Shown: positions 7,430 through 55,772 of the stretch, piece by piece | Position numbering within the stretch: position 1 is the stretch's first letter | Layout: every line of letters starts with the position of its first letter | From: Nesterenkonia alba DSM 19423 | GTDB taxonomy: Bacteria > Actinomycetota > Actinomycetes > Actinomycetales > Micrococcaceae | Length of the DNA stretch: 64,000 nt | NCBI RefSeq assembly: GCF_000421745.1 | Contig: NZ_ATXP01000012.1 | Coordinates: 22,183-86,182 of the forward strand | Direction of reading: 5' to 3' | Notes under the pieces: generated by a model | The model's database searches: none | Told to the model about the DNA's origin: nothing | Seen by the model: the letters and a program-made list of their open reading frames with translations, nothing else | Position numbers and translations under genes: made by a program

Positions 7430-7443
7430 CTGTCTCCTCCGGG

Positions 7444-8247: not shown

Positions 8248-8274
8248 GGTGCCACACTACCAACGGCACCGTGG

Positions 8275-35171: not shown

Positions 35172-35305
35172 ACACCGTGTAATATTGCACCTGGTAGTTG
35201 ATACGAGGGCTGTGGTGAGTTAAGTGCTGGCGTCCCGGTGATTCGATACCGGATGCATATACTGGAACTGGATCTCCCCCCAGATATTGTTATAGGAGTC
35301 ATATT

Positions 35306-38300
35306 GTGTGGTCTGTGCGGCCTGTCGTCGGACGTGAGAAGGAAATCTCGCAGATTCGCCGAGCCGCCGACCTCTCCACTCCTGGTCGCCCCCACTTTCT
35401 CTACGTAGAAGGTTTCGCCGGCGTCGGTAAGACCACCACGGTTCTGAAGGCCTTACATCCGTATACGGACCGCCGTGAATACTCCGTAGTTCTTGACCGC
35501 GACGCCGGCGCCTCACCTGGTGCCGCACTGCGCCGCTTCCTGCAGCGGCCGGGGGAGGATCTCAGCTCTTACAGCACAGACGATCTGGTCGCCCTGGCGG
35601 TGGAGCGGGCCAGCCAGCGCATCACCGAACCCAGCATCCTCACCGTGGCCAATGCCCAACGTTTGGATGCTGAATCCGCCCAGGCGGTGATTCGGGTGCT
35701 CTCCCTGATCCGGGGTCTTCCGCTGTTGGTGGTCTTCACCGGCCGGCCCAGCCCCTGCCCGGCGGTCACCCAGCTGGCTGGGTTTGCGCGCAACAGCCCG
35801 CAGGCGGCCTACATCGGCCTGGATCCGCTCACCCCCGTGGAGACACGGGAGCTGCTGGGCCACTACATCAACACGCCCATCAGCACAGAGGTGGCGGAGA
35901 CGGTTCACGAGCACACCGCCGGCTACCCGTTGCTCATTCACGAAGTCGGTGAACACTTGGCTTCGGTCCCCATCGGGCGACGCCGGTTGGCTGATTCGTT
36001 GCGGATCCTGGGGTCGGGCCGGGCCTCTCAGCGGATCCACCGGGCCTTGGATGAGGTGCTCGCTCCAGCGTCCCCGACGACGATCCGCGCCTTGGAACTG
36101 CTTGCCGCCTCCGCGGAGTGCTCCTCAGAGTCGCTCTCCAAGCGGGAGATCGACGAAGCTCTCGGGGAGGCGACCGTGGAGTTCAGCGATCTGCTGGAGA
36201 CCGGGCTCGCGGTGTGGGATGAGACCCGGTTTGGCTACACCACCCGCAACCACGTGATTGCCCGGGCATTGCTGGATCGGACGAGTTCGCAGAACTACGC
36301 GGAGGTCCACTGGCGGCTCTCTGAGGTGCTGGACGAGGTCCGCTCCCTGCGCCACCAGGTGGCGGCAGTCCGCGCCTCTGCGCAGAGTGAGGATATCGAC
36401 TGTCTCATCACTCGGCTGCGGGAGCAGGCGGAGAAGGCGCTGATGCGTGGCGACCTTGAGGATGCGTTCCAGTGGTTTCTTCGGGTGGCGCAGCTGCGTC
36501 CGGATGCTAAAGCATTAGAGGACATCCTGCACATTGGCGTGCCGTTGGGACACATGGACTGTTTGCCGCCGTTCGGGGCGGCGTTGCGCCGACTGGAGCC
36601 GGGTCCGTTGCGCCAGGGTGGTTTGGCTTTACTGGCGTTGGAGGAAAACGATCTCAGTGAGGCGATCGCCGCCGTCGAACGTCAACCCCGCTTTGATGTC
36701 ACCGCCCAGGGTGCGCTGGTCTTCGCTCACGCGGTGGCGAACCTTTCGGCCCAGCTGGGGATCCAGGGGATTATTGGCCGTGCCGCCCAGGTGAAGATGC
36801 ACACCTTGATGATGCTCTCAGCCATGGAGGAGAATCTCCGGCACAGGATCGCCTCCTATAGTGAGGATGACCCTCTGCCGGTGGAGGGTCTGGAGTGGGA
36901 GCGGGCCCATGCGGCCGGTCTGCGGGCGGTGATTGAGCTGTGGCAGGTGTTGGAGCACCGGGATCCGCAGATGATGCGCCGGGCGGTGGATGACATCTCC
37001 CTGGAGTTGAAGCGTTTGGAGCAGGTGCCGATCACTGAGATGTTCCAGGTGGGGTTGCGGGCTGGCCGGGGGACTCGGTTCCGTCAGATCAGTGACCCGG
37101 TCCGCGCGTATGAGGATCTCACTAAGGCCACGGAGACCGCTCAGGGTAGCCAGTTCCTCATCTACGCGCAGGCGCAGCTGGCTCATGTGCTCTTTACGGC
37201 TGGGTTCTGGCAGGAGGCGGAGGATGTCGCTGCCTACGCTGCAGGCCGTGCACTGGCGGCCCGGGAGGATGCTTCTGCGTTGATCGCCTACGCCACGTGG
37301 GCGATGGTGCCGCTGTGCCGCGGGGATTACGAGCAGGTCCAGCCGCTGATTGAGGAGCTGGAGGAGGCGCGCTCTAGTACTGGACCGATTTTGGCGGCGT
37401 CGTTGGAGTATTTGCACGCCTGGCGGGCGGTGATTGAGGCTGACCATGAGCTCACCGTGCAGCACCTGTTGAAGATGCGGGATACCTCCGGTGGCTGGTG
37501 GAACATCGGTATTGACCCCATGCTGCTGCTGGTCCGGGCGGCGCACTATGCGGGCTGGGGTTCGGCGATCCAGCCGCTGTACCGTGCGGTGACCTCGGGC
37601 GATTGCCCGGCTCGGGATGAGTTCCAGTACGCGGTGACTAGCTATATGGAGGCGTTCCAAGCCTGGCAGGCCTATGACCCGGTGAAGGCTATGGGCCACT
37701 TTCTGAGGGTGTATGAGTGGTTGGATGCTCAGCCGCCGTTGCGTTCGGGGATGCAGACCTCAGAGTCGGGTGGCTACCGGATGCACAAGGCGTTCAATTT
37801 CTTGGATATGGCGGCGCTTCTCATTGCGTTTCCGGAGGAGTTGCGCCGGCACCGGGCCACGGCGATCGAGGGGCTGGAGTGGACGGCTTCGGTGTTCCGT
37901 AGTGTGAATGCTCAGGGGTTGATGCAGTTCGCGCTGGAGGAACTCTCTGCTTTGCGGCCGCGGCTGCACATGGGGCATGCCCCGAGTGCTCATGCACCCA
38001 ATGGGAACTCGCAGGGGCAGTCGGCGGAGCCTCAGCACCCCACACCGGCTTTCCCTCCGCCGCGGAATGAGGACGACGACGCCGGCCCCAGTCCCATGGA
38101 GAAGCTTTCGGCCCGTGAGCGCCAGGTTGCCTTACTTGTTGCCGACGGCAATACGAACAAGGAGATCGCCGAGGAGCTCAATGTCTCGGTGCGGACAGTG
38201 GACTTCCACGTGAGTAATGCGTTGGCCAAACTGGGGTTGCGCTCACGCCGGGAGATCCGCCGGAAGCTTCGCGGGCTGGACAACGGTACTCACGTGGAGG

Positions 38301-38320
38301 CGTCCCTCCCCGCGCGGTGA
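35306..38320 (+). CDS. Large ATPase-LuxR family transcriptional regulator
   Basis: A 1004-aa LAL/MalT-type regulator. An N-terminal AAA/STAND ATPase has Walker A GFAGVGKTT (about 37-45) and a Walker B-like strand ILTVANAQRLD. A winged-helix and TPR-like helical region (about 350-900) follows, then a LuxR HTH (LSARERQVALLVADGNTNKEI... VRTVDFHVSNALAKLGLRSRREI) at about 932-990. GTG at 35306 has AGGAG at 8-nt spacing. It sits at the left border of the surface-protein locus, whose right border has a similar regulator, so local control is likely. Its last 25 bases are duplicated after the abiE genes. Confidence 0.88.
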   Translation: MWSVRPVVGREKEISQIRRAADLSTPGRPHFLYVEGFAGVGKTTTVLKALHPYTDRREYSVVLDRDAGASPGAALRRFLQRPGEDLSSYSTDDLVALAVERASQRITEPSILTVANAQRLDAESAQAVIRVLSLIRGLPLLVVFTGRPSPCPAVTQLAGFARNSPQAAYIGLDPLTPVETRELLGHYINTPISTEVAETVHEHTAGYPLLIHEVGEHLASVPIGRRRLADSLRILGSGRASQRIHRALDEVLAPASPTTIRALELLAASAECSSESLSKREIDEALGEATVEFSDLLETGLAVWDETRFGYTTRNHVIARALLDRTSSQNYAEVHWRLSEVLDEVRSLRHQVAAVRASAQSEDIDCLITRLREQAEKALMRGDLEDAFQWFLRVAQLRPDAKALEDILHIGVPLGHMDCLPPFGAALRRLEPGPLRQGGLALLALEENDLSEAIAAVERQPRFDVTAQGALVFAHAVANLSAQLGIQGIIGRAAQVKMHTLMMLSAMEENLRHRIASYSEDDPLPVEGLEWERAHAAGLRAVIELWQVLEHRDPQMMRRAVDDISLELKRLEQVPITEMFQVGLRAGRGTRFRQISDPVRAYEDLTKATETAQGSQFLIYAQAQLAHVLFTAGFWQEAEDVAAYAAGRALAAREDASALIAYATWAMVPLCRGDYEQVQPLIEELEEARSSTGPILAASLEYLHAWRAVIEADHELTVQHLLKMRDTSGGWWNIGIDPMLLLVRAAHYAGWGSAIQPLYRAVTSGDCPARDEFQYAVTSYMEAFQAWQAYDPVKAMGHFLRVYEWLDAQPPLRSGMQTSESGGYRMHKAFNFLDMAALLIAFPEELRRHRATAIEGLEWTASVFRSVNAQGLMQFALEELSALRPRLHMGHAPSAHAPNGNSQGQSAEPQHPTPAFPPPRNEDDDAGPSPMEKLSARERQVALLVADGNTNKEIAEELNVSVRTVDFHVSNALAKLGLRSRREIRRKLRGLDNGTHVEASLPAR
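38295..38320. repeat. Left copy of 26-bp direct repeat flanking abiE
   Basis: These bases, the last codons and stop of the LuxR-type gene, recur at 39876-39901 with one mismatch (TGGAGGCGTC then C or A, then CTCCCCGCGCGGTGA). The two copies bracket the abiE operon, as expected of an insertion or attachment-site duplication. Confidence 0.65.
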
Positions 38321-38368
38321 GATGGGCCATAAGGAACGAGGGAATATAGAGGGATCGGCTTCCTCTAT

Positions 38369-38416
38369 TGAAACAAAGCGTTGACAGGTAGAGTTATCTG
38401 CGTACATTGTGTTTCA
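38369..38416 (+). promoter_or_regulatory. abiE promoter with flanking inverted repeat
   Basis: TTGACA (38381-38386) and TACATT (38403-38408) are spaced by 16 nt, a good sigma-70-type promoter. TGAAACA (38369-38375) and TGTTTCA (38410-38416) are perfect inverted arms bracketing it, a fitting site for AbiEi autorepression, which is known in this TA family. Confidence 0.7.
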
Positions 38417-38435
38417 GGGGCAGAAGGTGAGAAGT

Positions 38436-38993
38436 ATGTCCGCGCTGACTCCGGGAATCGCTGGTCGCGAGGGTCTTTCACGCAGTGCACTTTATCGCGC
38501 TGCCCAGGAGGGACGGTTTGAGCGGATTGCGCGCGGGATCTATCTGCCTTCTGATGCTGCAGCGACTGACTGGGAATGGGTAGAGGCCTCGACGCGCCGG
38601 CCGGAGGCGACGATCTGCCTTACTTCTGCCCTGGCTTATTATGACCTTACTGACGTGATCCCGGATGCGCTCAATGTCGCGATCCCGCGAGGTGTTCGCA
38701 TTCCTGCGACTGACTCAGCTATCACGTGGCACTCGTTTGACCGTTCGACATTCGACATCGGGCGCGAAGAAATCTCTATTCCAGGCAGTGAGTTGACGAT
38801 TGGTCTTTATTCGCCGGAACGCTCAATCGTCGACGCTTTTAGGTTGCGTGGAGAGCTGGGGTATGAATTGGCCCGGGATACCTTGAAGGAGTGGTTGCGT
38901 CGAGGAGGTAAGCCTGCCCATCTCATGGAGATTGCTACTCGAGTTCCACGGGCTAAAACCCCGGTACTGCGAGCGCTGGAGCTACTGTCATGA
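38436..38993 (+). CDS. abiEi: AbiEi-type antitoxin (type IV TA)
   Basis: A 185-aa protein. An N-terminal winged helix (REGLSRSALYRAAQEGRFERI) is followed by IARGIYLP and a C-terminal antitoxin domain with TICLTSALAYYDLTD, VAIPRGVR and LYSPERSIVDAFRLR, all typical of AbiEi/COG5340. It represses its own promoter and neutralises AbiEii (established for the family). ATG at 38436 has AAGGTGAG upstream. It overlaps abiEii by 4 nt. Base composition is lower in GC than neighbours, which supports horizontal transfer. Confidence 0.9.
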   Translation: MSALTPGIAGREGLSRSALYRAAQEGRFERIARGIYLPSDAAATDWEWVEASTRRPEATICLTSALAYYDLTDVIPDALNVAIPRGVRIPATDSAITWHSFDRSTFDIGREEISIPGSELTIGLYSPERSIVDAFRLRGELGYELARDTLKEWLRRGGKPAHLMEIATRVPRAKTPVLRALELLS

Positions 38994-39835
38994 CAAGCGG
39001 AGTGGAAATCTACAAGCGCATACAGTCTGCTGCCCGTTCAACGGCGGATAAGACCGGAGTACCCGCGCCAACGCAGGAATACCTGATCCGGCACTTATTG
39101 GAGTCTTTTCTTGATCGGCTCACGAGGACACCCCATGGGGATGATTTTGTCCTCAAAGGTGGGATTCTGCTTGCCGCCTATGGGGTGCGGCGGCCCACGA
39201 AGGACGCTGATGTCAACGCAATCAGTACTTCAGTAACTGCCGAGAATTTGGCAGGTGTAGTGCATGATATTGGAGCCGTTGAGACGGAAGACGGTGTTCT
39301 GCTCGATACAGACACAACGAGCATCCAAGAAATCCGTGAGCACGCGGAATATCCGGGGTTCAGAGTCCGAGTGAAGGCCAATATTGGGCCGTGGTCGGGT
39401 ACTGCAGCGTGGGATGTTTCGACCGGAGATCCGATCATTCCCGCTCCCCGGCCTATTCGGATTGAACGAGTGCTTGGTGAGCCTATTGAGCTGCTAGGTT
39501 ATGCCGTTGAGACCACCATCGCAGAAAAGGGTGTCACCATTCTTGAACGTGGTACGACGAGTACAAGGTGGCGCGATTATGTTGATATTGTCCAGCTTGC
39601 CCGACAAGGGGTGGAGGAAGCTGAGCTGTTACGATCTGCGCGTGCTGTAGCTGCTTATCGGGGTGTTCGCCTTGAGCCAGTTGGTCCGCGTTTAGTCGGT
39701 TACGGAGCGATTGCCCAAAGAAAGTGGGCCGCGTGGCGCCGCAAAGAGGGACTCGAAGCCATATGTGAGGAGAATCTTGATGATCAGGTCGCGCTTGTCG
39801 CTTCCTATCTCGACCCAGTCTTCAGCCAGGGATAG
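38990..39835 (+). CDS. abiEii: AbiEii/AbiGii nucleotidyltransferase toxin
   Basis: A 281-aa toxin of the MNT-type nucleotidyltransferase fold. The active-site pattern DDFVLKGGILLAAYGV, RRPTKDADVNA is at about 51-77 (KGG and DAD motifs). A Lys in AEKGVTILERGTTSTRWRD and an RDYVDI segment fit family motifs III-IV. Such toxins modify tRNA or other targets and cause abortive infection (known for the family). ATGA overlap with abiEi. The pair is bounded by 26-bp direct repeats. Confidence 0.9.
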   Translation: MTSGVEIYKRIQSAARSTADKTGVPAPTQEYLIRHLLESFLDRLTRTPHGDDFVLKGGILLAAYGVRRPTKDADVNAISTSVTAENLAGVVHDIGAVETEDGVLLDTDTTSIQEIREHAEYPGFRVRVKANIGPWSGTAAWDVSTGDPIIPAPRPIRIERVLGEPIELLGYAVETTIAEKGVTILERGTTSTRWRDYVDIVQLARQGVEEAELLRSARAVAAYRGVRLEPVGPRLVGYGAIAQRKWAAWRRKEGLEAICEENLDDQVALVASYLDPVFSQG

Positions 39836-39864
39836 TGCATAAGAAGGAGACCCCGATGCGTCCC

Positions 39865-41223
39865 TCAGGCGTGGCTGGAGGCGTCACTCCCCGCGCGGTG
39901 ATGTAGGTATTTGCCGACCAGGATGGAGCTGACGGCCGCGAGGAGGAAGAACAGCACGGAGATCCCGGTGCGGGCGAGTTGGCTGTCCAGCTGACTCTCC
40001 TGCGGTGGGGAGGGCTCGTACGGTCCATAGAGCTCATACGATTCCTGCTCCCCACCCTCAGTCCCCTGATGTCCGGGTTGTTCAGTCTCCGGCGGCAGCG
40101 TTTCAAGCTCGGGTGAGGATTGCCCGGGGGAGACTGTCGCTTGGCGGGGGCCAGCCTGCACGTGCACCATCACGGAGGACAGTGAGGCCTCACCCTCGTT
40201 GCCCGCCCCGGGTGGTAGCCAGGCGAGCATCCGCAGCCAGCGTTCCTCCCCGGCGGGAAAACTCGTCAGTTCCTGCTCGGTGATCCCCTCGGCGGTTGCG
40301 AGATGTTCAACATGCAGTTCTGCTTCGCCGGGGCAGGTGTGAGTGGTCAGGCTCATCTCGGAGAGTTCGCTCTCCCATGGTGCAGTGCAGCTGTGGATGG
40401 TTAGCAGCAGGGGCAGTTCGCCGTGGACGCTGATGCCGAGGTTCACGGTCCCGGGGGAGGGGAGATCGGTGACTGCCACGCCCAGGTCCCAGCGCGCTCC
40501 GCGCTGCGGTGTCATGGCCAGGGCCTGCTCCGGGTCGTAGAGGGAGGTCAGTTCGATCTCGGGCTGGGGGTCCCCGGGCAGGGCGGCCTGCGCGCTGGGG
40601 GAGTGCGTGTTCCAGAGGATCCCGGTGAGGAGTACGACGACGCCGGCTTGGGTGAGTCTTCGGCGTCGTCGTCTCGTTTTACGGGAGTCATCCGGTGGGG
40701 GTGCTTGAGGTGCTGGGCGCCGCTCGTTCCGGGGTTTCCGCGGCCAGAAGGCCCACCATGTTAATGCGGCCACTACCAGGGTGATGCTGGCGATGACGTA
40801 GGGGTTGTTGAGCTGGTTGATGGGTCGGGCGAGGTGCGGCACGGAGAATAGTGCGACTCGTGCCTCGGTGATGGTGTAGGGGTGGGGGTCTTCGGTGTCG
40901 TTGCCGTCGCCTTGCATGCGGATGATGCGTTCGTCGGGACTGTCGCCTTCGGCGATGTCGATGACCCGGTGGGTGACGGGTAGTTCACCCGGCCGGTCCA
41001 CGGTAAGGATGTCGCCGACTTCCACCTCAGTGGCGGGGATCTCTTGGACCACGGCGATGTCCCCGGGGTTGATGGTGGGGATCATGGAGCCGGTCTGGAA
41101 CATGATGATGCTGATCTTCAGCCAGTAGGCGATTGCCGCCGCGCCCACTGAGAGGAGCCCCAGGAGGGTGAAGAACCAGAGAAGAGTTTCGCCCAGGAGT
41201 CCCCGGAGGCGTCGAGCGCTCAT
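39865..41223 (-). CDS. SipW-type signal peptidase fused to an extracellular domain with LARTG anchor
   Basis: A 452-aa protein. Residues 1-175 are a SipW-like (ER-type, Ser/His) signal peptidase: FQTGSMIPT with Ser46, PVTHRV with His85, MQGDGN with Asp106, and membrane helices at about 12-35 and 148-170. A basic cytoplasmic loop (RKTRRRRRR) and a third helix (QAGVVVLLTGILW) lead to an extracellular domain (about 210-400) with two Cys. LARTG (416-420), a hydrophobic helix and a short HHR tail follow, like a sortase sorting signal. CAGGAG precedes the ATG. It is downstream of the TasA-like gene that it probably processes. The last codons lie in the duplicated 26-bp repeat. Confidence 0.8.
   Translation of the reverse strand: MSARRLRGLLGETLLWFFTLLGLLSVGAAAIAYWLKISIIMFQTGSMIPTINPGDIAVVQEIPATEVEVGDILTVDRPGELPVTHRVIDIAEGDSPDERIIRMQGDGNDTEDPHPYTITEARVALFSVPHLARPINQLNNPYVIASITLVVAALTWWAFWPRKPRNERRPAPQAPPPDDSRKTRRRRRRLTQAGVVVLLTGILWNTHSPSAQAALPGDPQPEIELTSLYDPEQALAMTPQRGARWDLGVAVTDLPSPGTVNLGISVHGELPLLLTIHSCTAPWESELSEMSLTTHTCPGEAELHVEHLATAEGITEQELTSFPAGEERWLRMLAWLPPGAGNEGEASLSSVMVHVQAGPRQATVSPGQSSPELETLPPETEQPGHQGTEGGEQESYELYGPYEPSPPQESQLDSQLARTGISVLFFLLAAVSSILVGKYLHHRAGSDASSHA
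39876..39901. repeat. Right copy of 26-bp direct repeat flanking abiE
   Basis: Matches 38295-38320 at 25 of 26 positions. Read on the minus strand it forms the final codons of the SipW-fusion gene, so the repeat is coding on both sides of the cassette. Confidence 0.65.
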
Positions 41224-41276
41224 GGGGAACTCCTGGGCGAAGCGAAGGGCAGGTGTTGCGAAAGGGTGGGACGGAC

Positions 41277-42023
41277 TTAGTTGCCGCCGCCTCCACCGCC
41301 GCCGTTGCCACCGTCACCGTTGTCACCGTTGTCGTCATCGTCACTGTCGTCCATGGCGACGGTGATCTCCCAGGTGGCGGTGGTGGCATCTTCCTGGTCG
41401 CTACCGGTGGGGACCAGGTCTTCGCCGGCGGTTACCGCGAAGCAGAGCTGAACAGGGGCACCGGGGCCGCCGTCGCCGACCGGGACTTCGATAGGGCTGG
41501 AGGGGTTACTGATAGTGCCCAGGTTAGTACCCTCGGCAGACAGGTTGTCGTCATCGATTGCACCGGCACCGCAGGTGTCGCTGGAGTCGATGCTGTGCAG
41601 GGCTACGGTGAGGTTGTCGACGTTATCGCCATCGGCTCGCTCCACCTCGTAGTCGCTGATGATGCCGGGCAGGCTGCTGCCATCGGCGGCGCGGATCCAC
41701 AGTGGTGCGTAGACCACGTCACCGGGGACCATGGCGTCGGCCTCGAACGTCAGCTCGGCGTTGTTGGTGTTGCCGTCGTCGTCCTCACCGTGGTTCTGGT
41801 AGCCGTCGGTAGCGCTGGTGGGGCTGGATTCGATCTCGAAGGATCCGGTGCCGAACCAACCCTCGGCGAACTGGTCACCCTGCCAGGCGGCGAGGGTCGC
41901 GATAGCACCGAGGCCGAGCACGGAGGCTACAGCTACACCGGCCTGGACCTTACGGCGCCGATTGTTCGGCTGTTCGGGCTGAGTTTGCTGGTCAGGTGTC
42001 GCAAGTGTCTGAGTCTCAGACAT
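41277..42023 (-). CDS. SipW-dependent secreted protein (TasA/CalY-like), Gly/Asp-rich tail
   Basis: A 248-aa protein with a SipW-type signal: RRRKVQAGVAVASVLGLG then AIATLAAWQGDQFAEGWFGT. The mature part is acidic and beta-rich with two cysteines (DTCGAG and QLCFAV). It ends in a D/N/G tail (DDDDNGDNGDGG then GGN). Likely a fibre or surface-matrix subunit processed by the downstream SipW fusion. ATG has GGGGAGA upstream. It resembles the protein at 43254-43952 in architecture and in being followed by a SipW gene. Confidence 0.82.
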   Translation of the reverse strand: MSETQTLATPDQQTQPEQPNNRRRKVQAGVAVASVLGLGAIATLAAWQGDQFAEGWFGTGSFEIESSPTSATDGYQNHGEDDDGNTNNAELTFEADAMVPGDVVYAPLWIRAADGSSLPGIISDYEVERADGDNVDNLTVALHSIDSSDTCGAGAIDDDNLSAEGTNLGTISNPSSPIEVPVGDGGPGAPVQLCFAVTAGEDLVPTGSDQEDATTATWEITVAMDDSDDDDNGDNGDGGNGGGGGGGN

Positions 42024-42291
42024 GTGTCTCCCCTATGAAAGTGAGTGATTCAGTGACTGGGCGTGCTGAAATTCAGGCCGCATCTTCCCCCGACTATGGA
42101 TGCCCGCCTGTGCACAGACTCCTGGTCGACTTAACACAGCCTGTGCGTACACTAACATGGATTTTCCCCTAAAGACACCTTAACGCCAGCTTGAAATTGA
42201 GTACTCAGCACTGATAGATGTAGAGGTGCACGTACCTGTCAGCGTCACTCGCGTGCACCTCGCCCTGTACTCGCATTTCGATGAGGCTCCC
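42024..42291. promoter_or_regulatory. Divergent control region of the SipW locus
   Basis: Intergenic region between the two divergent SipW arms; no gene is visible. It contains the palindrome CTGAAATTCAG (42066-42076), GCCTGTGC repeated at 42108 and 42137, and a TTGAAA (42191) that could be a -35 for the rightward arm with a poor -10 about 17 nt on. A binding site for one of the flanking LuxR regulators is likely here but not identified. Confidence 0.35.
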
Positions 42292-42489
42292 GTGCTGCCC
42301 CACCTCACCGCCTCCCGCCGCCACCGTCTTCACCAGCGTGCCCTTGCGGTGCTCGCTGGTGGGCTGATGCTGGGCTGCGGTGCCACGTTCACTGCGGCTA
42401 CGTGGGCCCGTGAGTCGTATGTGGGTGCGACGATTACGACGGCGGATTTCGAGGTTCAGGAGTCTGAGTCCAGTGGGGATGCCGAGTGA
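42292..42489 (+). CDS. Mini SipW-dependent protein (65 aa)
   Basis: A short protein made almost wholly of a SipW-type signal (RALAVLAGGLMLGCG then ATFTAATWARESYVGA) plus a 20-aa acidic tail (TTADFEVQESESSGDAE). GTG at 42292 has GAGG 5 nt upstream; a GTG at 42226 would add 22 residues unlike other signals. It overlaps the next gene by 4 nt. If cleaved at the usual SipW site, only a peptide of about 25-30 aa is released. It resembles the mini protein at 45269. Confidence 0.6.
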   Translation: MLPHLTASRRHRLHQRALAVLAGGLMLGCGATFTAATWARESYVGATITTADFEVQESESSGDAE

Positions 42490-43226
42490 GTGATGAGAAT
42501 CCCCAGCAGCCCCAGACGCGCCGGTCACGCCGGAAGGCAGCTGAAGTGCGCAAGCCGCGGGTGCGCTGGAGTGGTTTGTCTCGACGTAGTAAACGGAAAG
42601 TCCAGGCTGTCATCGCAGGCGGTCTCATGTTTGGACTTGGGGCTGTGAATACTCTGGCGAGCTGGACTCATGAGTCATACCTCGGGGCTACTGTGACCAC
42701 AGCTGACTTCCTCGTAGGAGGATCTGTGGAATACAGCACTATTGTAAATTTCGATAATCGCCGGAATGGTGAATGGCATTCTGGATCTAGCGATACCTTC
42801 TCTGTGGATACACCGAATTTACGCGCTTTGCAACCAGAGGGGCCTGATAATGCCCAGCTTCGTACGTGGGTGAGAGTTGATCCCTCCAGTGCTGCGAACA
42901 TTCAGGCAGTGCGTCTCCGGTTGGTGGACATTGAAGTCGACAGCCCCAATGCTGAACACCTTGCATATCAGGTGCATCATGCACAGACGGCTTTTGATGC
43001 AACCCAGTGGTCAGGATGCAACGGAGATAGAGGTACTGTCAATGCTAATACAGGAACCCTGATAACTGAGGGTGAAAGCCTCCATGATGTTTCAGATGAG
43101 GAGGGGATGATTATTCCAAGAGGTTCAAATGTGCATCGCATCTGCGTCACCCTCATGCCGGGCCCCGGCCTTCTCCCTAATGATGAACTGGACCTCACTT
43201 TGACATTCGCTGTCGGTCCTGAATGA
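42486..43226 (+). CDS. SipW-dependent secreted protein
   Basis: A 246-aa protein. A basic N-terminus of 40 aa precedes the SipW signal (VQAVIAGGLMFGLGAVNTLA then SWTHESYLGATVTTADF). The mature domain has paralogue signatures: WVRVDPSSAANI, NAEHLAYQV, Cys in SGCNGD, HRICVTLM and LLPNDELDLTL. GTGA overlap with the upstream mini gene. The N-terminal coding part is GC-rich, but 42720-43200 is visibly AT-richer, as if the secreted domain came from elsewhere. Confidence 0.78.
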   Translation: MSDENPQQPQTRRSRRKAAEVRKPRVRWSGLSRRSKRKVQAVIAGGLMFGLGAVNTLASWTHESYLGATVTTADFLVGGSVEYSTIVNFDNRRNGEWHSGSSDTFSVDTPNLRALQPEGPDNAQLRTWVRVDPSSAANIQAVRLRLVDIEVDSPNAEHLAYQVHHAQTAFDATQWSGCNGDRGTVNANTGTLITEGESLHDVSDEEGMIIPRGSNVHRICVTLMPGPGLLPNDELDLTLTFAVGPE

Positions 43227-43253
43227 TATTTTGCTCAAAGCAGAGAGGAAAAA

Positions 43254-43952
43254 ATGAGCGATCAGCCAATGACTCCAGCGGAGGCGAAGCGACGGAAACG
43301 GCGGGCACTGCTCGCTGCCGGCGCTATCGTCGGTATCGGCGGAGCAATTACCCTCGCCACCTGGGTGGACCAGGAGTTCGCCCAGGCGGAGTTCGACTCC
43401 GCCCAGTTCGCCCTGGCCGGCCAGATCGAGGGCTCGGTGGACAGTGAAGAGGAGACCTACACCCAGAACCCGGAGGATGCCCCGGCTGGGCTGCAGTTCG
43501 ACGTGGACGAGGACGGTCTGATGCCGGACACCTCCGTCGCCGCGTCCTACTGGGTGCGTCTGACCGCCGATACCATCGATGAGGCCGAACTCAGCGTCTC
43601 CGACATCGAGTCATCCGGTGGCAACATCGAGCACCTCTCCTACGAAATCTACGCCGACGGCAACTGTAGCGCCTCCAGCCCCAGTGGGGACCTCGTCGCC
43701 AGCGGTGACACCCTCGAGTCCTCGGCACTCACCCAGGGCAGCCCCGCCACCCTGACTCCCAATCTCGACGTCAACGAACCCGGTGACCCGGTGGAGCTGT
43801 GCGTGGTTGTCACCTCCGGCTCTGCTGCCGGTGAAGACGGCTTCCAGCCTGGCGAGTCCACCACTATCACCTGGGGTCTGACCGCAGACGCCACCGGAGA
43901 CGGTGATGACAACGGAGACAACGGCAACGGTGGCGGCGGCGAAGAAAGCTGA
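43254..43952 (+). CDS. SipW-dependent secreted protein (TasA/CalY-like), Gly/Asp-rich tail
   Basis: A 232-aa protein. SipW signal AAGAIVGIGGAITLATWVDQ is near residues 20-40. The acidic beta-rich mature part has two Cys (GNCSAS, ELCVVV) and IEHLSYEIYADGN as in the paralogues. It ends in a DGDDNGDNGNGGGG-type tail like the leftward protein at 41277. GAGAGGAAAAA precedes ATG. The adjacent downstream gene encodes a SipW peptidase, probably its processing enzyme. Confidence 0.82.
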   Translation: MSDQPMTPAEAKRRKRRALLAAGAIVGIGGAITLATWVDQEFAQAEFDSAQFALAGQIEGSVDSEEETYTQNPEDAPAGLQFDVDEDGLMPDTSVAASYWVRLTADTIDEAELSVSDIESSGGNIEHLSYEIYADGNCSASSPSGDLVASGDTLESSALTQGSPATLTPNLDVNEPGDPVELCVVVTSGSAAGEDGFQPGESTTITWGLTADATGDGDDNGDNGNGGGGEES

Positions 43953-43984
43953 CCCAGGCCTATCGGGGGCGTGAAAGGGCACAC

Positions 43985-44611
43985 GTGAGAGCATTCGGGC
44001 GCAAGTTCGCTGACCTGCTGCTGTCCATCGCGGCAGCAGGCGGTGCGGTGTGCATCATTCTGGTGCCGCTGGCCTGGCTGTTCGATATCAGCATCATCAT
44101 GTTCCGCACCGGATCCATGGTCCCTACCCTGGAGCCGGGGGATATCGCCATCGTCCAAGAAATTCCCGCGGAGGACATCGAGGCCGGCGACGTCGTCACC
44201 GTGGACCGTGAGGGTGCCCTGCCGGTCACCCACCGTGTCACCTCCGTGGAGGAAGGCCCCAGCTCCCAGGAGCGGGTCATCACCATGCAGGGCGACGCCA
44301 ATGAGACCGAGGATCCTCACCCCTACACGGTGGAGACTGTCCGCACGGTTCTGTTCTCCATTCCTGGGATCGCCACCGGTGTCGCGTTCTTCTCTGACTC
44401 GCGGGTTCTGGCTGTGGCCACCCTGGTGATGTCCTTGGTGGTCGGCTGGGCGTTTTGGCCTCGCGGTCCGGTGGTGGAAGAGGATGACGAGGACGACGAC
44501 GCCGCTGGGGAGAGTGCCGAGGAGGGTTCGGCACCGCAGGAACCGGAGGATCCCGAGGCGGAGGATGACTACCTCCCACGGCACGCGACGGGGGCTCCGA
44601 CGGCGTCGTGA
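43985..44611 (+). CDS. sipW: SipW-type signal peptidase I
   Basis: A 208-aa ER-type signal peptidase with Ser44 in FRTGSMVPT, His83 in PVTHRV and Asp in MQGDANETEDPHPY. Membrane helices are at about 12-36 and 135-157, with an acidic cytoplasmic tail (EEDDEDDDAAGES). Uses a Ser/His rather than Ser/Lys dyad, as known for SipW, which processes TasA-like substrates. Its N-terminal 150 aa closely match the leftward SipW fusion, but this one lacks the extra extracellular domain. It overlaps the next gene by 4 nt. Confidence 0.9.
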   Translation: MRAFGRKFADLLLSIAAAGGAVCIILVPLAWLFDISIIMFRTGSMVPTLEPGDIAIVQEIPAEDIEAGDVVTVDREGALPVTHRVTSVEEGPSSQERVITMQGDANETEDPHPYTVETVRTVLFSIPGIATGVAFFSDSRVLAVATLVMSLVVGWAFWPRGPVVEEDDEDDDAAGESAEEGSAPQEPEDPEAEDDYLPRHATGAPTAS

Positions 44612-45276
44612 AGGAGAAACCGCTGATGGGAGGGGGTACCTCGCGGAGGTCTGCCCGGTGGCGGCGTGTCCGGGCGGGGGTCGCAGCCGGGGGAGTGCTG
44701 GGCTTGGGCGCTGCCCTGAGCCTGGCAGCCTGGACCGAGACCACCTATACGGAGGCAGAGGTCGTGTCGGGCAATTTCCTCACTGAGGGCGCTTTGCAGA
44801 TCTCAGATGTACATGACGGTGGCTGGCGCTCCTCCAGTGATGACGGTCCTCTGCCGATGGTGATGCTCGGCGAGAGCGAGGGCATGGAACCTTATGACAC
44901 GGCCATGGCTCGGGCCTGGGTGCGGCTGGATCCCTTGAGCCCGGCCAGTGCGGAGTCCTGGCGGCTGGACCTCGATGACATTCAGGTGGAGACCCCGAAT
45001 GCCGAGCATATTTCCTACGAGGTCTACGTAGATCCAGCGACGTATAGCAACCGCAACTTAGGCTGCGCGGGCAATATGAGCCAACACGGTTCGCAGACAG
45101 AGCTCCTGGCAGGTGGCGAACGTCTCGGCAGCATCGAGCGGGAGACTCCTGATGGCCTGGAGGTTCCAGCGGGTGAAGTGCGCCGGATTTGTATCCGGTT
45201 TGAAGCCGCCCCCGGTCTGGTTCCGAACGATGAGATCGAGATGAACGTCGTCTTCAGCGGGGTTATCGGTGACTAA
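44608..45276 (+). CDS. SipW-dependent secreted protein
   Basis: A 222-aa protein. The SipW signal RAGVAAGGVLGLGAALSLAA then WTETTYTEAEV is near residues 20-50. The mature domain shares WVRLDPLSPASAES, NAEHISYEVYVDP, Cys in LGCAGN, RRICIRFEA and LVPNDEIEM with its paralogues. GTG at 44608 overlaps the sipW stop; ATG six codons later (AAGGAG upstream) is an equally good start. Unlike its neighbours its whole length is GC-rich. Confidence 0.78.
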   Translation: MKEKPLMGGGTSRRSARWRRVRAGVAAGGVLGLGAALSLAAWTETTYTEAEVVSGNFLTEGALQISDVHDGGWRSSSDDGPLPMVMLGESEGMEPYDTAMARAWVRLDPLSPASAESWRLDLDDIQVETPNAEHISYEVYVDPATYSNRNLGCAGNMSQHGSQTELLAGGERLGSIERETPDGLEVPAGEVRRICIRFEAAPGLVPNDEIEMNVVFSGVIGD

Positions 45277-45505
45277 GCGTACGACGACGTCGCAGGCCCG
45301 CATCCGTGCCCTCCTCGCGGCTGGTCTAGTCGTCGGCTTGGGTGGTGCCTATGTGGTGGCCTCATGGACGACTCAGGAGTACCTCGGTGTCTCGGTCACC
45401 ACGGGCGATTTCGAGGTGGCAGAGCCTGACACGTCCGCCGATGACACCTCCATGCAGCAAGAGAGTGAGTCCGGTTCAGTTGGGGGAGGGGGAATTGCCG
45501 AGTGA
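45269..45505 (+). CDS. Mini SipW-dependent protein (78 aa)
   Basis: Consists of a SipW signal (RALLAAGLVVGLGGAYVVA then SWTTQEYLGVSVTTGDFEV) and an acidic/Gly tail (SADDTSMQQESESGSVGGG). No room for a folded domain. Overlaps both neighbours (8 nt upstream, 4 nt downstream), so it is embedded in the operon. The second such mini protein in the locus (compare 42292). Confidence 0.65.
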   Translation: MTKRTTTSQARIRALLAAGLVVGLGGAYVVASWTTQEYLGVSVTTGDFEVAEPDTSADDTSMQQESESGSVGGGGIAE

Positions 45506-46251
45506 AACTTCCTTCCCTTCGCTGGCGACGTCGTTCCTCCGCTGAAGATGATGCCCCCGCGGTCTCGCCGCGCCGTACCCGCATTCGTCGTCAACGGATC
45601 GGCGCAGCCCTCGCCGCCGGTCTCGTCCTCGGCTTAGGAGCGGCAAGCACCCTCGCCGAGTGGAGTGCTCACCAGTTCGTCGGTATGAGTGTCCAGACCG
45701 GTGACTTCATCATGGGAGGCGGAATTCAAGTCAACGCCAGCGGAAGCATTCCCCCCAATGACGGATGGATGACCGGCACAAATGCAGAAGACTACGTGCA
45801 TATGTATGCCTGGGACACGTCGGATCTCCACCGTGATATGGGGCCGGGGGATAATGCTGTGATTTTCGGTTTTGTTCGTATTGACCCTGTCAGCGCAGGG
45901 TACGTAGAGTCAGCGAATCTCCATGTCGACGGGCTTGTGGGGTTAGATGGTGGTCCAGTCCAAGGACCTAATGTTGAGAATATTGCCTGGGAAGTGTATT
46001 TACGAGCTGCCAATGGCAATGGGGGCTGCTCATCCTTAGCCCAAGCAAATAATCCGCCAGCAACTATTGGCACGCTCGTGGCGTACGGGGACTCCTTGGA
46101 TGAAATAAATCATGTGGATGATACTGGCTGGGAAGTCACCAGAACGGGGAATAATCACCGAGTTTGTCTCCGCTTGATGGCTGGGTCAGATCTTGTGCCC
46201 AATGATGAACTGGATATCGTGGTTCGAGTGCGGGCGGAGGGTAACGAGTGA
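45502..46251 (+). CDS. SipW-dependent secreted protein
   Basis: A 249-aa protein. Basic N-terminus, then SipW signal GAALAAGLVLGLGAASTLA and EWSAHQFVGMSVQTGDF. The mature domain has FVRIDPVSAGYVESANL, NVENIAWEVYLRA, Cys in GGCSSL, HRVCLRLMAG and LVPNDELDIVV. GTGA overlaps on both sides. Bases 45700-46200 are AT-richer than the signal-coding part, the same split seen in two paralogues. Confidence 0.78.
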   Translation: MKLPSLRWRRRSSAEDDAPAVSPRRTRIRRQRIGAALAAGLVLGLGAASTLAEWSAHQFVGMSVQTGDFIMGGGIQVNASGSIPPNDGWMTGTNAEDYVHMYAWDTSDLHRDMGPGDNAVIFGFVRIDPVSAGYVESANLHVDGLVGLDGGPVQGPNVENIAWEVYLRAANGNGGCSSLAQANNPPATIGTLVAYGDSLDEINHVDDTGWEVTRTGNNHRVCLRLMAGSDLVPNDELDIVVRVRAEGNE

Positions 46252-46940
46252 CTGACGCCATCCAGAACGACTATCAAGAGGCTAAAAGGCGCACTCGTCG
46301 GCAGCGGCTCTTGGCCGTTCTCGGCGCCGGCCTGGTCTTAGGGGTTGGCGGTGTTGCCACTCTCGCCTCCTGGACGGATGAAGAGCATCTCGGGGTGGGA
46401 GTCACAACAGGAGACTTTGAAACCGGCGGGGTGTTAGAAATCGGTATTGGGACGGGGTATCGGACCAATACAACTCTTGAAACTCCACTGCTTGCCACGA
46501 TTGAAAATACCAGGTCAATGGGGCCAATCGATGACTTGAGACACGGCCAACAAGTGGCCATCAATGTGAGTGCCCGGCTATCTGCCGAAAGTCACCCTGA
46601 CATCCAGTCAGCATATCTCATGGTAGATGAGATTCATGTCCATGGTTCAGAAAATAATGATATATCCAATAACATATCGTTTGAAATATATGTTAGAGAA
46701 ACTCAACTTGGTTCCGGTTGTGACAGCAACACTAATGTAAATAATCTTCCCGTGTCTACAACTGGCGAACTTTTTGCTTCCGGCGATAGCTTGGATGACA
46801 TTGAGCACGCAAACGCTCGTGGTTTCCCTATGACACGGGGGCAGGCCACGCGCCTGTGCACCATCCTGAAGCCAGATGGGCGAGACCTCATCCCGAATGA
46901 GTCCTTCGATGTGATCTTCGAGTTCACCCTGCGCCCCTGA
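46248..46940 (+). CDS. SipW-dependent secreted protein, last gene of the arm
   Basis: A 230-aa protein. SipW signal AVLGAGLVLGVGGVATLASW then TDEEHLGVGVTTGDFETGG. The mature domain keeps the Cys pair (GSGCDSN and TRLCTIL) and IPNESFDVIFEF. It is the most divergent paralogue and markedly AT-rich in the middle (46430-46800). GTGA overlap with the previous gene. Convergent with the ABC permease gene 62 nt away; no strong terminator seen between them. Confidence 0.76.
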   Translation: MTDAIQNDYQEAKRRTRRQRLLAVLGAGLVLGVGGVATLASWTDEEHLGVGVTTGDFETGGVLEIGIGTGYRTNTTLETPLLATIENTRSMGPIDDLRHGQQVAINVSARLSAESHPDIQSAYLMVDEIHVHGSENNDISNNISFEIYVRETQLGSGCDSNTNVNNLPVSTTGELFASGDSLDDIEHANARGFPMTRGQATRLCTILKPDGRDLIPNESFDVIFEFTLRP

Positions 46941-47002
46941 GGATCGTTCTTGGCAGTCTGTCTGAGTCTCCGCGGCCTTGCCACTCTTGAAGTCTCTGCT
47001 GG

Positions 47003-48664
47003 TCAGACTCTGTTGATCTCCCGGCGCTTCCAGCCAAGCAGTCCGAGGAGGACGCCGACAACGCCGATCCCGGTCAGTACCAGCACAGGAGTCCAGGCGA
47101 TATCCTCCACTGGGTACTCCGCGAGGTGCCCAAAGAGGTTGAGGCTCAGGATGGCGTCTGGCAAGTCCAGAAGCTGTCCGAAAGTGGACATCACCCCGCC
47201 GAAGCCCACGAACACCCAGCCCACAGCACCTGCGATCTTGGGGAACCAGCCGAACAGTGCGGTGACAATGCCCACCACAGCCAACACCGCGGGAGTCTGC
47301 ATCACAGCAGCCAGGAACAGCTCGCCGAAGTACTGGCCGCCATCCTCCTCCAAAGAGGCCATGGCGCCTACCCCCATCCCGGCACCCACCAGGGCCAGAA
47401 TCACCAGCACACCTGCCACCAGCACGGTCAGATGCACCCCCAACCATGTTGTGCGGCCCACCGGTGCGGACATCGCGTACTCAGCCCGGCTTCGGTTCTC
47501 CTCCCCGCGCAGTTGCTGCAGCGCGCTGACGCCGGCGGCGGCGATGAACACAGACATGAACAGCGCCATATAGGCCAGGTATCCCAGCATCATGTCCTCG
47601 CCGGCGAAGATCTGTGCCATCTCCGCAGGAAGATCACCGGCGGCATCCACCATGGTCTGGGCGAAGCTGCCGAACATGAGGCCAGTCAGCAGCAGGGCGA
47701 TCCCCCAGCCCCGCAGGCTGCCCTTGAGGGTATGTGATGCCAACCCCAGCGGAGTGCCCAGCCGGGGCCGCGCCGTCGCCCGTCCCAACCGAGTGGGGAG
47801 CAGACTTGCCCCAACGTCGCGTTGGGTAGAGAGCCAATATCCCAGTGCTAGCAGTACCACGGCGAAACCGGCTGGCAGCAGCAGGGGCCACCAACGGTCC
47901 TCCACATAGGGGGCAGTCTGCTGGGACCAGGCCAGCGGGGAGAACCAGGAGAGGGTGCTGCCGCCGATCTCCGCGGCATCCCCGCCCATGCGGATCAGGA
48001 AGGCCAGTCCAATCAGCCCGCCGGCCATACCGGAGGCACCGCGGGAGGACTCGCTCAGCTGGGAGCTCACAGCTGCAGCGGCGGAGAAAAACAGCCCGAC
48101 GGCGAGACCCCCGGTAGCCACGAGGGCAGAGCCCTCGGCGGCGAACCCGCCCGCCAGAGCAGCGGCCCACATGAGCAGTGCTGCCAGAAGATTGGCCACC
48201 AGTGTCAGGATCAGGGTGGCCGTGAGAGTAGCGTGCCGGCCCACCACATTGGCGCGGATCAGCTCCGCCCGGCCGGTCTGCTCCTCCACCCGGGTATGGC
48301 GCACCACCGTGAACACGCTCATCAGCGCGATCAGGATGTAGAGGTAGAGCACATAGCCGGAGGAGAAGAAGGCGGCATGGGTGGGATCCTCCATGCCGAA
48401 CCCGGGACCGGTCATCATCCGCCCGACCGGATCGGCGAACATGGTGGTCAGCGCCCGCAGCTCCTCCTCGGTCTCAGCGATCAGCTGGATCGCATTGGCG
48501 AAGTAGAAGGCCGCCACCGCGACTCCCAGCACCCAGGCGGTGGTGCGGATCCGGTCACGGCGGACCATGAACCGCAGCAGCGTGCCGGTGCCGGACAGGG
48601 TTGCTTGACCGGCGGAGGGGCGGGGTGCCTGCCGGGTCTCAGTAGAAACAGGTGCGGTACCCAT
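47003..48664 (-). CDS. ABC-2 type exporter permease
   Basis: A 553-aa membrane protein with about twelve hydrophobic helices in two similar halves. The pattern MVRRDRIRTTAWVLGVAV near the N-terminus and LRGEENRSRAEYAMSAPVGRTTW at the start of half two is typical of two-domain actinobacterial ABC-2 exporters for antibiotics or polyketide-like compounds. ATG lies one base after the ATPase stop, so translation is coupled. Cargo unknown. Confidence 0.87.
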   Translation of the reverse strand: MGTAPVSTETRQAPRPSAGQATLSGTGTLLRFMVRRDRIRTTAWVLGVAVAAFYFANAIQLIAETEEELRALTTMFADPVGRMMTGPGFGMEDPTHAAFFSSGYVLYLYILIALMSVFTVVRHTRVEEQTGRAELIRANVVGRHATLTATLILTLVANLLAALLMWAAALAGGFAAEGSALVATGGLAVGLFFSAAAAVSSQLSESSRGASGMAGGLIGLAFLIRMGGDAAEIGGSTLSWFSPLAWSQQTAPYVEDRWWPLLLPAGFAVVLLALGYWLSTQRDVGASLLPTRLGRATARPRLGTPLGLASHTLKGSLRGWGIALLLTGLMFGSFAQTMVDAAGDLPAEMAQIFAGEDMMLGYLAYMALFMSVFIAAAGVSALQQLRGEENRSRAEYAMSAPVGRTTWLGVHLTVLVAGVLVILALVGAGMGVGAMASLEEDGGQYFGELFLAAVMQTPAVLAVVGIVTALFGWFPKIAGAVGWVFVGFGGVMSTFGQLLDLPDAILSLNLFGHLAEYPVEDIAWTPVLVLTGIGVVGVLLGLLGWKRREINRV

Positions 48665-50806: not shown

Positions 50807-53800
50807 ATGCCGCATCCAGGGCTGGGGCGTGCTGTGTTCGCTGGTGTGTGGGTACGGCGATCCATGGGGATCGCTGTCGTCGCTCTCCTGGCCCTTACCG
50901 GTACTTCTGAGGTCACGGCTCATGTGGACTCCTCTCGGTCATCCGCTAGCTCGGTGCCATCCCCCACTGAGTCGCCGGAGGAGACACCCTCGCAGACAGC
51001 GGAGAGTAGCGAAGATGCGGATCCCGACGAGGATGAACGCACTGCGGATGAGCACGCACCTACCCCCGATGAAGTGGGTGAGGAAACGCCGAGTGATTCT
51101 GAGGACGAGCACGAAGAAGGCGATGACAGTGACGAAAGCTCCGAGCCGGAGCTCCGCATGGCCCAGATGAACAGCACTCCCATTCGCCGCGGGAGTATCC
51201 CCGAGCACTACAAATTTCACAGTCGCCCGAGTGCTTCGAACAGTGAGCACCTGATAATGGTTCAGGTCGGTGACGGCACTGCGGATGTAGAAGACGTGAC
51301 GCTTCACCTGGTGGACCGCAGTGGCAACCGTGCTGCGCGTGCGTCGGACTCCAACTGGGACTACTGCACGTCCAACGCCCGTGGCGAATGCTGGTTCATC
51401 ATCCCTGAGGCCCGGTGCCTGCAAGCCTCTGGAACTCGTTGTGTCCAGTCAGAGCGCAATTATGACCGGGAACTGTACGTCCAGGCCGTCGACGACGCCG
51501 CCGGGTCACCCGAGGAGGTCGAACCTCTGCTCACTGCCGCCATCAGCCCCGTTGCGGGGGAGGAGCCTCGGAACGCTTCTCGTTACCGTCACCGCGTGGG
51601 CCACCGCGATGGGACCAACTTTCTGGTGCGGGGTACCTATGAGTCGCACTCAGGCCGAGACTTCATGAACTACGGGGCAAGCAGTACCACGCCTACTGGT
51701 TCTCTCGGCACTTTCCCCGTCAGCCGGCCGAACCCGTCCATGCCGGACCGCTGTGGGCTGGATGTGGCGGTCACCCTGGACTTCTCCTCCTCCATGGATG
51801 GCGACGAACGTGCGCTTGCCGATGCCACCACGGCATTCGTCGACAGTCTTGAGGGGACGCCTTCATCCATGGCTCTCTTTAACTTCGGTACGGACAGTCC
51901 CGTCTCATCGTCGTTGCCGGACCTTCCGGGTTTCAATTTCGCTCAACCTGAGTCCGTTTCCACCTCCGCAGGAGCGCAGACCGTGCGTGGGTGGTACACG
52001 GACGGGCAGGGAAACCCGAACTTCAATATTCCGCACGGACAACATGCACAGGGTCAGGGGACAAACTGGCATCGAGGATTCGAGCACCCCGCCTCACAGC
52101 CCTACGACTACGATGTGCTGGTTTTCGTCACCGATGGCAACCCCACCCTGCACGGGCGAAACCCCAACACCGCGGGTCAGTTGGGGGCTACGACCCGTTA
52201 CCAAGACATCGAGCAGGCAATCTTCGCTGCCAACTCCCTTAAAGCCCAGGGCACTCAGGTGCTTGCCGTGGGGGCGGGTGAAACAGGTATTGAACACGAC
52301 TACTCGACCTATAACCTCCGAGCGATTTCTGGACCAGTGGAGGAACAGGACTACTTCCAAACCCCTGAGTTTTCGGCTGCCGGTCAGTACTTGGCCAATA
52401 TGATCCTGGAGTCCTGCACACCCACGGTCACCGTGGTGAAACACGAAGTCCCTGAGGGTGGTGGAGCCAATGACGCCACGCCAGGTGAGGGGTGGGAATT
52501 CTCTGCTGAGATTACCGGCGACGATCTCGTGCGCTGGGAGGGAACAAACACCCAGCGCACCCAGGGGATGACCGGTGTTGACGGGGCGATTAACTTCGCC
52601 CTGGACTTCACCCCCAATGACCAAGCGGTCGTTGACCTGACTTTCACCGAGACATGGAAAGACGGCTGGGAGCCTTATCCGATCAATGACGGTGTGAGCG
52701 CCGTCTGTCGGGATATGAAAGATGGGGAGAACATCCTCGACGTCGAGGTCAACGACGACCAGTTCACCATTCGCGATGTCACGTTGGACATGGCCATCAC
52801 CTGTGAATTCTGGAACACCCAACAGAGCACGGCGGCCGCAGTGCAGGTGGACAAGCAGTGGGTGATCGACGGCGAAGTCATTCCACAGGGCCAACAGCCG
52901 AGCGATTACGACGCCGACCTGCTCATCACCCGCCCCTCAGACCACAGTGAACTCATCAACCGTGACTGGGGACGGCGGCTCGCCGGCTACAGCGCAGGCG
53001 ATGAACTGACGCTCGATGAGTCCCTCTCGGTCAATGAGGAACTTAGCCGTTGCACTGTAGAAGGCCGTGTTACTGAAGGTCGTGGCGTGACAAACGTTGG
53101 TGACCTGCTTGCCGGGCCCACTGGTGAGGAACTGCCATATGAGACAGCTGCTCTCGAGGTCGGAAGCGGCAACCGCTACACCATCACTAACTGGGTGACT
53201 TGCCAAGACCCTCAACTGACCCTCGAGAAACACATCGAAAGCGGTCCTGGTGGTGACGCCTGGCGGCTGCAGGCACGCACCGGCGACGGCACCCTTGTCA
53301 TGGACGGCACCACGGGTGAGGCCACAGTCAACTCGCCCGGTTCCGTGACCGGAGAGGTCGCACCAGGCATCTACCACCTGGCAGAGTCGGCTGGCTCCCC
53401 GCTCTACGTCCAACTGGACGATCGAGAGAACCCCGAAGCATTTCCGCACGCCACCGGTTCCTGGGAATGCAGCCTGGAGAACCGCCAGGGTGAACGGATC
53501 GCCCTTCCAGACACGTTTGAGAATGACGGCAGCAACGGCGGGGTCAGTGTGCGAGAAGGAACGCACGTGGTCTGCGGCGCAGTGAACCAGACAGCTCAGC
53601 TGACCCTGCTGAAGACTATTGAGGGTGAGGGCGCTGAACTCAGCCCGGAGGATTTCGATCTCACGGCTACTCCCGATGAACTCAACGGGGATTTTGCCGG
53701 GGAGCTCACCGAGAACATTGTCCCTGGTGTTTCAGAGGTGGACGAGGCACAGAGCTTCTACGTGCGCCCCGACCACAACTACACCCTCAGCGAGGTCCTC

Positions 53801-54103: not shown

Positions 54104-54158
54104 CCTCAGACGCCGGAACGGTACACCCCAGACCACCATCGACACGAAGGGAACCACT

Positions 54159-55643: not shown

Positions 55644-55772
55644 GCCGGCCCACGCCTCAGGCACCCCACCCCAACCTGAGGCACCGCAAGCCGGAGCGGG
55701 CGTGGGACCCGCGGGAAACCCCCGACCCCGTGCAGGTCCCGCCCCGCTCCACCCCCTGAAAGGACACCCACC

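Follow-up and report, generated by a model that had tools for sequence, protein, structure and literature searches.

The 64,000-nucleotide stretch of DNA analyzed here (the window; contig NZ_ATXP01000012.1, positions 22,183 to 86,182 of the forward strand) comes from the 2.59 Mb draft genome of Nesterenkonia alba DSM 19423. Between 39.9 and 46.9 kb it carries two divergent arms of genes for SipW-type signal peptidases and for proteins with SipW-type signals. The leftward arm is made up of B and SipA, and the rightward arm of s1, C, D, SipE, F, s2, G, and H. We interpret them as two SipW gene sets that stand back to back, differ in ancestry, and likely export and assemble fibers of the TasA-like donor-strand type; s1 and s2 would supply the first or the last donor strand, and the fibers would be tied to the cell wall by the SipA ectodomain. 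We assign this reading a probability of about one half.

On the minus strand, SipA (39865..41223) combines a peptidase domain (approximately residues 1-165) with a Sec-type signal (SAQA/ALPG), an immunoglobulin (Ig)-like ectodomain, and a C-terminal LARTG motif, as assigned by TIGR02228, the peptidase alignment A1, an anchor profile, and AlphaFold2. B (41277..42023) encodes a full-length SipW-signal substrate with an acidic, Gly-rich tail, the core subunit type kept in Micrococcales. On the plus strand, the rightward arm opens with s1 (42226..42489; start uncertain between 42226, 42253, and 42292), a short protein of signal and donor segment only, identified by its profile match, its GTGA overlap, and the occurrence of the same gene pair elsewhere. 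It is followed by the full-length substrates C (42486..43226) and D (43254..43952; acidic, Gly-rich tail), the stand-alone SipW-type signal peptidase SipE (43985..44611; assigned by TIGR02228 and the peptidase tree), the full-length substrate F (44608..45276), the 78-residue signal and donor protein s2 (45269..45505), and the full-length substrates G (45502..46251) and H (46248..46940). C, F, G, and H are of one type. A preliminary description of this DNA had placed two divergent arms within 7 kb, which these coordinates confirm. Its count of seven SipW-signal proteins rises to eight, six full-length ones plus s1 and s2, as at most one of the short open reading frames (ORFs) had been included. 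The rightward arm had also been described as packed by GTGA overlaps; this 4-bp overlap is present at four of the seven junctions (s1/C, SipE/F, s2/G, and G/H), but F/s2 overlap by 8 bp, and gaps of 27 and 32 bp separate C/D and D/SipE. That description was silent on the wall-anchor half of SipA, on the very short length of two of the signal proteins, and on an AbiE pair next to the leftward arm.

Both peptidases, SipA (54.3 bits) and SipE (56.3 bits), pass the cut-off of TIGR02228 (51.85), the endoplasmic reticulum (ER)/archaeal-type signal peptidase I family, and the earlier report of two SipW-type peptidases holds in coordinates and content. The GSM, VTHRV, and GD-x-N motifs, to which we presume the catalytic roles of an ER-type (Ser-His-Asp) peptidase, are kept throughout alignment A1 except in one row (L029), the first part of which is out of frame. 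In a difference from B. subtilis tapA-sipW-tasA, neither SipA (34.2 bits) nor SipE (37.1 bits) reaches the Bacillus SipW equivalog NF046067 (cut-off 190 bits).

An aligned SipW-type signal is common to all six full-length proteins B, C, D, F, G, and H. In the protein scan, the TIGR04088 cut-off of 19 bits is exceeded by H alone (28.6 bits); D, F, and G remain below it at 12.9-15.8 bits, and B and C give no match at expectation (E) values up to 1. The signals of s1 and s2 were found with a profile of the neighboring substrates. Against TIGR04089, the alternate-type signal exported family (cut-off 60), B, F, G, and H reach 12.0-15.4 bits and C and D are unmatched; none of the eight window proteins scanned matches the TasA equivalog NF046066 (cut-off 450 bits) at E up to 1. 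By pattern, no sorting signals occur in the six full-length proteins, unlike in sortase-polymerized (SpaA-type) pilus subunits. NCBI names many of the homologues "SipW-dependent-type signal peptide-containing protein", so the kind of protein is already catalogued.

In B. subtilis TasA, residues 28-38 at the mature N-terminus form the donor strand, according to the text of PMC9674648 available to us. In s1 and s2 (65-87 residues, given the uncertain start of s1), the signal leads into a stretch that corresponds to the N-terminus of a mature subunit, W-x-x-[EQ]-x-Y-x-G-x-x-[IV]-T-T-[AG]-D-F-E-V, and this is followed by a tail of 10 residues in s1 and a Ser/Asp/Gly-rich tail of 28 residues in s2; the subunit body is absent from both. 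Short ORFs in 99 sequences (the window and 98 loci, some present twice) were scanned by regular expression, with five matches, namely s1, s2, one on contig C17 of the same genome (locus L041), one in Sediminivirga luteola (locus L093), and one in L101 that is a truncated B-type ORF. In the first four cases, the short ORF shares a 4-bp overlap with the C/F/G/H-type gene that follows it, and no short ORF stands in front of F or H. The S. luteola ORF stops 18 residues past the Trp, and across the short ORFs this length runs from 18 to 47 residues. A database search with the short-ORF alignment returned ten proteins at E 0.001 or better, including the two of this window, that of S. luteola, and P0037, a 63-residue protein from a 1,153-base contig that is built like s1 and s2; several other matches look like partial or truncated forms of longer relatives.

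The donor segments were furthermore compared with those of the longer subunits. That of s1 matches C best (13 of 18 residues), and that of the S. luteola short ORF is closest to its own C (12 of 18), while s2 is closest to H (13/18) and agrees with its partner G at 8/18. When compared with 131 B/D-type donors from other loci (duplicates included), the donors of s1, s2, and L093 show means of 3.9-4.9 matching residues and a maximum of 8; the L041 donor, with one extra residue, was left out of this comparison. The L041 pair itself (7425-8578), a short donor-only ORF and a C/F/G/H-type gene, has no SipW within the 16 kb read and would thus depend on a peptidase encoded elsewhere.

The fiber gene sets might be as we describe them and s1 and s2 nevertheless be remnants or translational leaders, that is, broken duplicates of substrate genes kept since their overlap aids the translation start of the next gene. 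Repeated duplication of the C/F/G/H type, with five genes in this genome, could have furnished raw material for such fragments, and the parts after the Trp do vary in length. However, the same layout and 4-bp overlap recur in four copies that are spread over three contigs and two genera, and none of these copies has a subunit body. Across 186 codon comparisons of these four ORFs (pairs not independent), codon positions 1, 2, and 3 differ 74, 55, and 108 times, respectively, a coding pattern in which position 3 differs most. C and G have complete signals of their own, so no frameshifted single gene is implied. On this evidence we consider remnants or leaders unlikely. We propose that s1 and s2 seed or cap TasA-like fibers.

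The TasA-like nature of the subunits is a prediction from structure modeling and profile homology. The model of B (179 residues) has a mean predicted local distance difference test (pLDDT) score of 85.7 and a predicted template modeling score of 0.80, and its sole PDB match below E 0.001 is the TasA fiber 8aur (7.9e-5), in line with the analogy to TasA and SipW drawn in the preliminary description. Further fold matches are the Pyrobaculum calidifontis bundling pilus 7ueg (rank 4), the Sulfolobus filament 7pnb (rank 6), and FimG chains (ranks 12, 15, and 16); the two former are archaeal and do not figure among the PDB chains found by sequence profile, a search in which one subunit profile gave a single match at E 0.43 and the other none. 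The first 10 residues of the B model have a mean pLDDT of 47 and the first strand of the body begins at residue 19, so that the model presents a TasA-like sandwich with a loose N-terminal donor segment. A protein search with B found 32 proteins at E 0.001 or better, B itself counted. The C/F/G/H family is homologous to the B family (hhalign probability 99.8, E 2.2e-27), and a TasA-like fold is predicted for B and, via profile homology, for C, D, F, G, and H. Fold similarity does not show function, and the substrates could instead be exported monomeric surface or secreted proteins, such as adhesins or ribosomally made peptides, that do not polymerize; homologue names include "predicted ribosomally synthesized peptide with SipW-like signal peptide". 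What speaks against monomers is that B has the TasA fiber subunit as its closest fold and that the N-terminal segment lies outside the body of the model; we regard monomers as distinctly improbable.

In the donor-strand fiber proposed here, SipA and SipE would cut the signals directly before the conserved Trp, which would free the N-terminal strand, and the strand of each long subunit would enter the groove of the next. Having a strand and no groove of their own, s1 and s2 would serve the first C/F/G/H-type subunit by filling its groove, or would cap the growing end, and translational coupling through the 4-bp overlap would match the initiator to the subunit. B- and D-type subunits may build fibers of their own or join those of the C/F/G/H type, and mixed-subunit fibers may occur. 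The suggested role of s1 and s2 would be that of the minimal part of TapA in B. subtilis. TapA is thought to give the first donor strand of the TasA fiber, in the account accessible in PMC9674648, and cells secreting TapA residues 44-57 alone make proper biofilm, whereas a TapA peptide acts only weakly in vitro, as stated in the portions of PMC10151520 at hand. We propose that s1 and s2 fill the first groove because their make-up, like that of the engineered TapA(1-57) in the same portions, is a signal plus a donor strand, as in the construct sufficient for biofilm.

The locus resembles B. subtilis tapA-sipW-tasA in that an ER-type peptidase adjoins genes with SipW-type signals, one of them for a predicted TasA-like subunit with a free N-terminal segment. 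It differs in that no TapA-like model matches the window proteins scanned, the short donor-only proteins are natural ORFs, and a wall anchor is fused to one of the peptidases. In Clostridium perfringens, the operon sipW-bsaABCRSD likewise joins SipW to several genes for secreted substrates or accessory proteins; the excerpts of PMC7395162 available to us differ in describing two-component regulation, a BsaA devoid of an LPXTG-like motif, and no short donor-only gene, and no window protein matches TIGR04090 (BsaA family). For B. cereus, the accessible sections of PMC13082335 describe a chaperone-like protein used together with TasA and CalY. In the open-access literature, searched by titles and abstract openings and with subscription papers outside its scope, we found no description of such actinobacterial SipW/TasA-like loci. 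The TasA field has yet to settle how Gram-positive donor-strand fibers start, stop, and attach to the cell. Here, a minimal fragment like that of TapA seems to be encoded by a separate gene next to its likely partner, which would permit a direct test with a small peptide; the proposed seed or cap role is the new and sharply testable element of this locus. More tentatively, s1 and s2 could be natural "headless" subunits, donor-strand-only secreted microproteins coupled to TasA-like subunits and setting fiber start and stop, and SipA a signal peptidase with its own wall anchor that acts as a self-parting polyprotein, which would bring export, nucleation, and anchoring together in one locus.

SipA is a single ORF in which the peptidase is followed by the Sec-type signal, the Ig-like domain, and the LARTG sorting signal. 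LARTG, a hydrophobic stretch, and a basic tail at its C-terminus are features of class E sortase substrates, and contig C5 of the genome carries a gene for a class E sortase (210 bits against a cut-off of 160), presumably the partner of this LAxTG signal. Two type I peptidases above the TIGR02227 cut-off are also encoded in the genome. A housekeeping peptidase may cleave SipA at the Sec-type A-x-A site, and the class E sortase may cleave it at LARTG; after both cuts the peptidase would stay in the membrane and the anchor would sit on the wall, fixing the fibers. The ectodomain (residues 214-368), modeled by AlphaFold2 with a pLDDT of 89.6, is predicted to form a complete Ig-like fold. The idea that it is a further TasA-like subunit was considered and found no support, with an hhalign probability of 1.5% and no TasA chain among the listed fold matches, although a missing match does not exclude it. 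As a protein-search query, the anchor half found itself alone (1 of 4997 candidates); its relatives came from whole-genome searches.

Among 80 named loci of relatives, SipW is fused to a sorting signal in 23, a separate candidate anchor lies just downstream in 35, and neither is the case in 22. These classes were set by regular expressions, so that "neither" includes contig-end fragments (e.g., L049) and "separate" may include chance motifs. The label fused or not fused changes at least 10 times on the peptidase tree, from which it follows that the fusion of peptidase and anchor is labile and not a single event. Loci of the order B-D-SipW-anchor in Microbacterium and other Micrococcales resemble the leftward arm in homology and arrangement, including an anchor with a sorting signal; they differ in that the anchor is often a separate gene and that the leftward arm here has no D-type gene of its own. 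On these data, a TasA-like core together with a sortase-anchored component is widespread in Micrococcales.

The two arms differ in ancestry. In a tree of 91 SipW domains, SipA falls into a set of 14 rows with a Shimodaira-Hasegawa-like approximate likelihood ratio (SH-aLRT) support of 98, comprising 12 Nesterenkonia cassette rows (SipA included), one Yaniella row, and one long-branch paralogue of its own genome; another Nesterenkonia row (L036) is placed elsewhere, on a long branch. SipE is sister to the S. luteola peptidase (SH-aLRT 99; 70% identity over 162 columns). In a tree of 61 subunits, D and C are sisters to their S. luteola counterparts (SH-aLRT 96, 66% identity over 190 columns, and SH-aLRT 85, 44% identity over 178 columns, respectively), and B groups with four Nesterenkonia B proteins (90, not starred). 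Both trees are quick searches without bootstrap. The subunit tree draws on 31 of 99 sequences, chosen by the analyst and with rows below 90 bits or 120 residues dropped; the peptidase tree omits six duplicate loci, rows below 60 bits, short envelopes, and L035. The S. luteola locus has the order short ORF, C, D, SipW, which is that of s1-C-D-SipE; it differs in lacking the F-s2-G-H extension, and no anchor was found next to it. The rightward arm, sister in the trees to the operon-like S. luteola set and in the same order, thus looks acquired and then expanded by F-s2-G-H, and the leftward arm is the Nesterenkonia version of a Micrococcales core of substrate, substrate, SipW, and wall anchor. 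Upstream of the S. luteola locus, an apparent resolvase and an IS21-like pair were read by eye, with no profile run. The GC content at third codon positions (GC3) is 0.54 in G and 0.53 in H versus 0.71-0.79 in B, D, F, and both peptidases. Eleven plasmid records matched SipE, none of them across 80% of its length.

The preliminary description had suggested that the locus may build a mixed-subunit fiber; in the corresponding model, one native cassette duplicated in place and formed a single fiber of this kind. The full-length substrates are indeed homologous and within 7 kb, and a TasA/CalY heteropolymer is reported for B. cereus in the accessible sections of PMC13082335, but SipA stands apart from SipE, C and D group with S. 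luteola as well, a single in-place duplication is rejected on the peptidase and subunit trees and such an origin is already disfavored, which leaves this model very unlikely.

That the cassette is kept in relatives applies to its core. SipW has at least one SipW-signal gene nearby in 78 of the 80 named loci, an association beyond chance, and at least two such substrates in 70 of the 80; ORFs in relatives were taken to begin at the first possible start codon, which overstates some of their lengths. It does not apply to one cassette as a whole, given the separate affinities of the two arms and the C/F/G/H expansion, which at E 1e-25 was found in this genome only (1/394 class genomes and 1/396 order genomes). 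In 395 family genomes, 68 show some match at E 1e-8, the best elsewhere scoring 90.7 bits versus 273-309 here. The profile was built from these C/F/G/H-type proteins and those of S. luteola, and the class, order, and family draws are samples, two of which returned no S. luteola although the profile includes it.

The arms had further been described as flanked by large LuxR regulators. One (35306-38320; LuxR1) is separated from SipA by an AbiEi/AbiEii-type toxin-antitoxin pair (38409-39835), and the second (59394-61844) lies about 12 kb from H; genes for an ABC transporter and a TetR-like protein and a sortase-pilus cluster stand in between. Both regulators have relatives (157 and 1324 bits) next to the cassette in N. 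ebinurensis (L027). However, of the six further genomes of the genus in which LuxR1 has a close relative (49-51% identity), two (G008 and G011) have it next to a SipW cassette and the remaining four do not, which weakens conserved control by LuxR as a candidate. Another large LuxR regulator (G000:C7:195-3107) is 43% identical to the one at 35306-38320. The sortase-pilus cluster (50807-58588) comprises a 1098-residue LPHTG protein, two SpaH/EbpB-family pilins, and a class C sortase. Comparison with 14 genus loci (L024-L037, up to 19 kb each) listed no relative of the window's pilins, sortase, AbiEi, or AbiEii, and the cluster was rejected as a conserved neighbor.

Between the arms, upstream of s1, a promoter-like match (42131..42158, plus strand) gives weak evidence of a promoter; positions 39700-47100 hold five such matches against a mean of 1.7 in shuffles. 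An Rfam scan of 35000-48000 returned nothing at gathering score. Two Nesterenkonia genomes have a different protein between D and SipW, whose start is SipW-like (394 residues at L032:9928-11112 and 304 residues at L033:8395-9309), and neither locus gave an anchor match.

The N. alba genome holds further genes of this kind. On contig C18 (L038, 5847-12848), a second low-GC3 SipW set consists of SipW, a Sec-exported protein that has a membrane segment at its C-terminus, and two SipW-signal proteins, one with a weak match (23.9 bits) to the TasA model. The contig has two genes matching phage families, but a link to phages was tried and dropped, with no match to its TasA-like protein in phage records. 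Lone TasA-like SipW-signal genes of low GC3 lie on contigs C23 (L039, 7217-7810) and C25 (L040, 5335-5949), the former with DNA methyltransferase-like and HNH endonuclease-like genes about 5 kb away.

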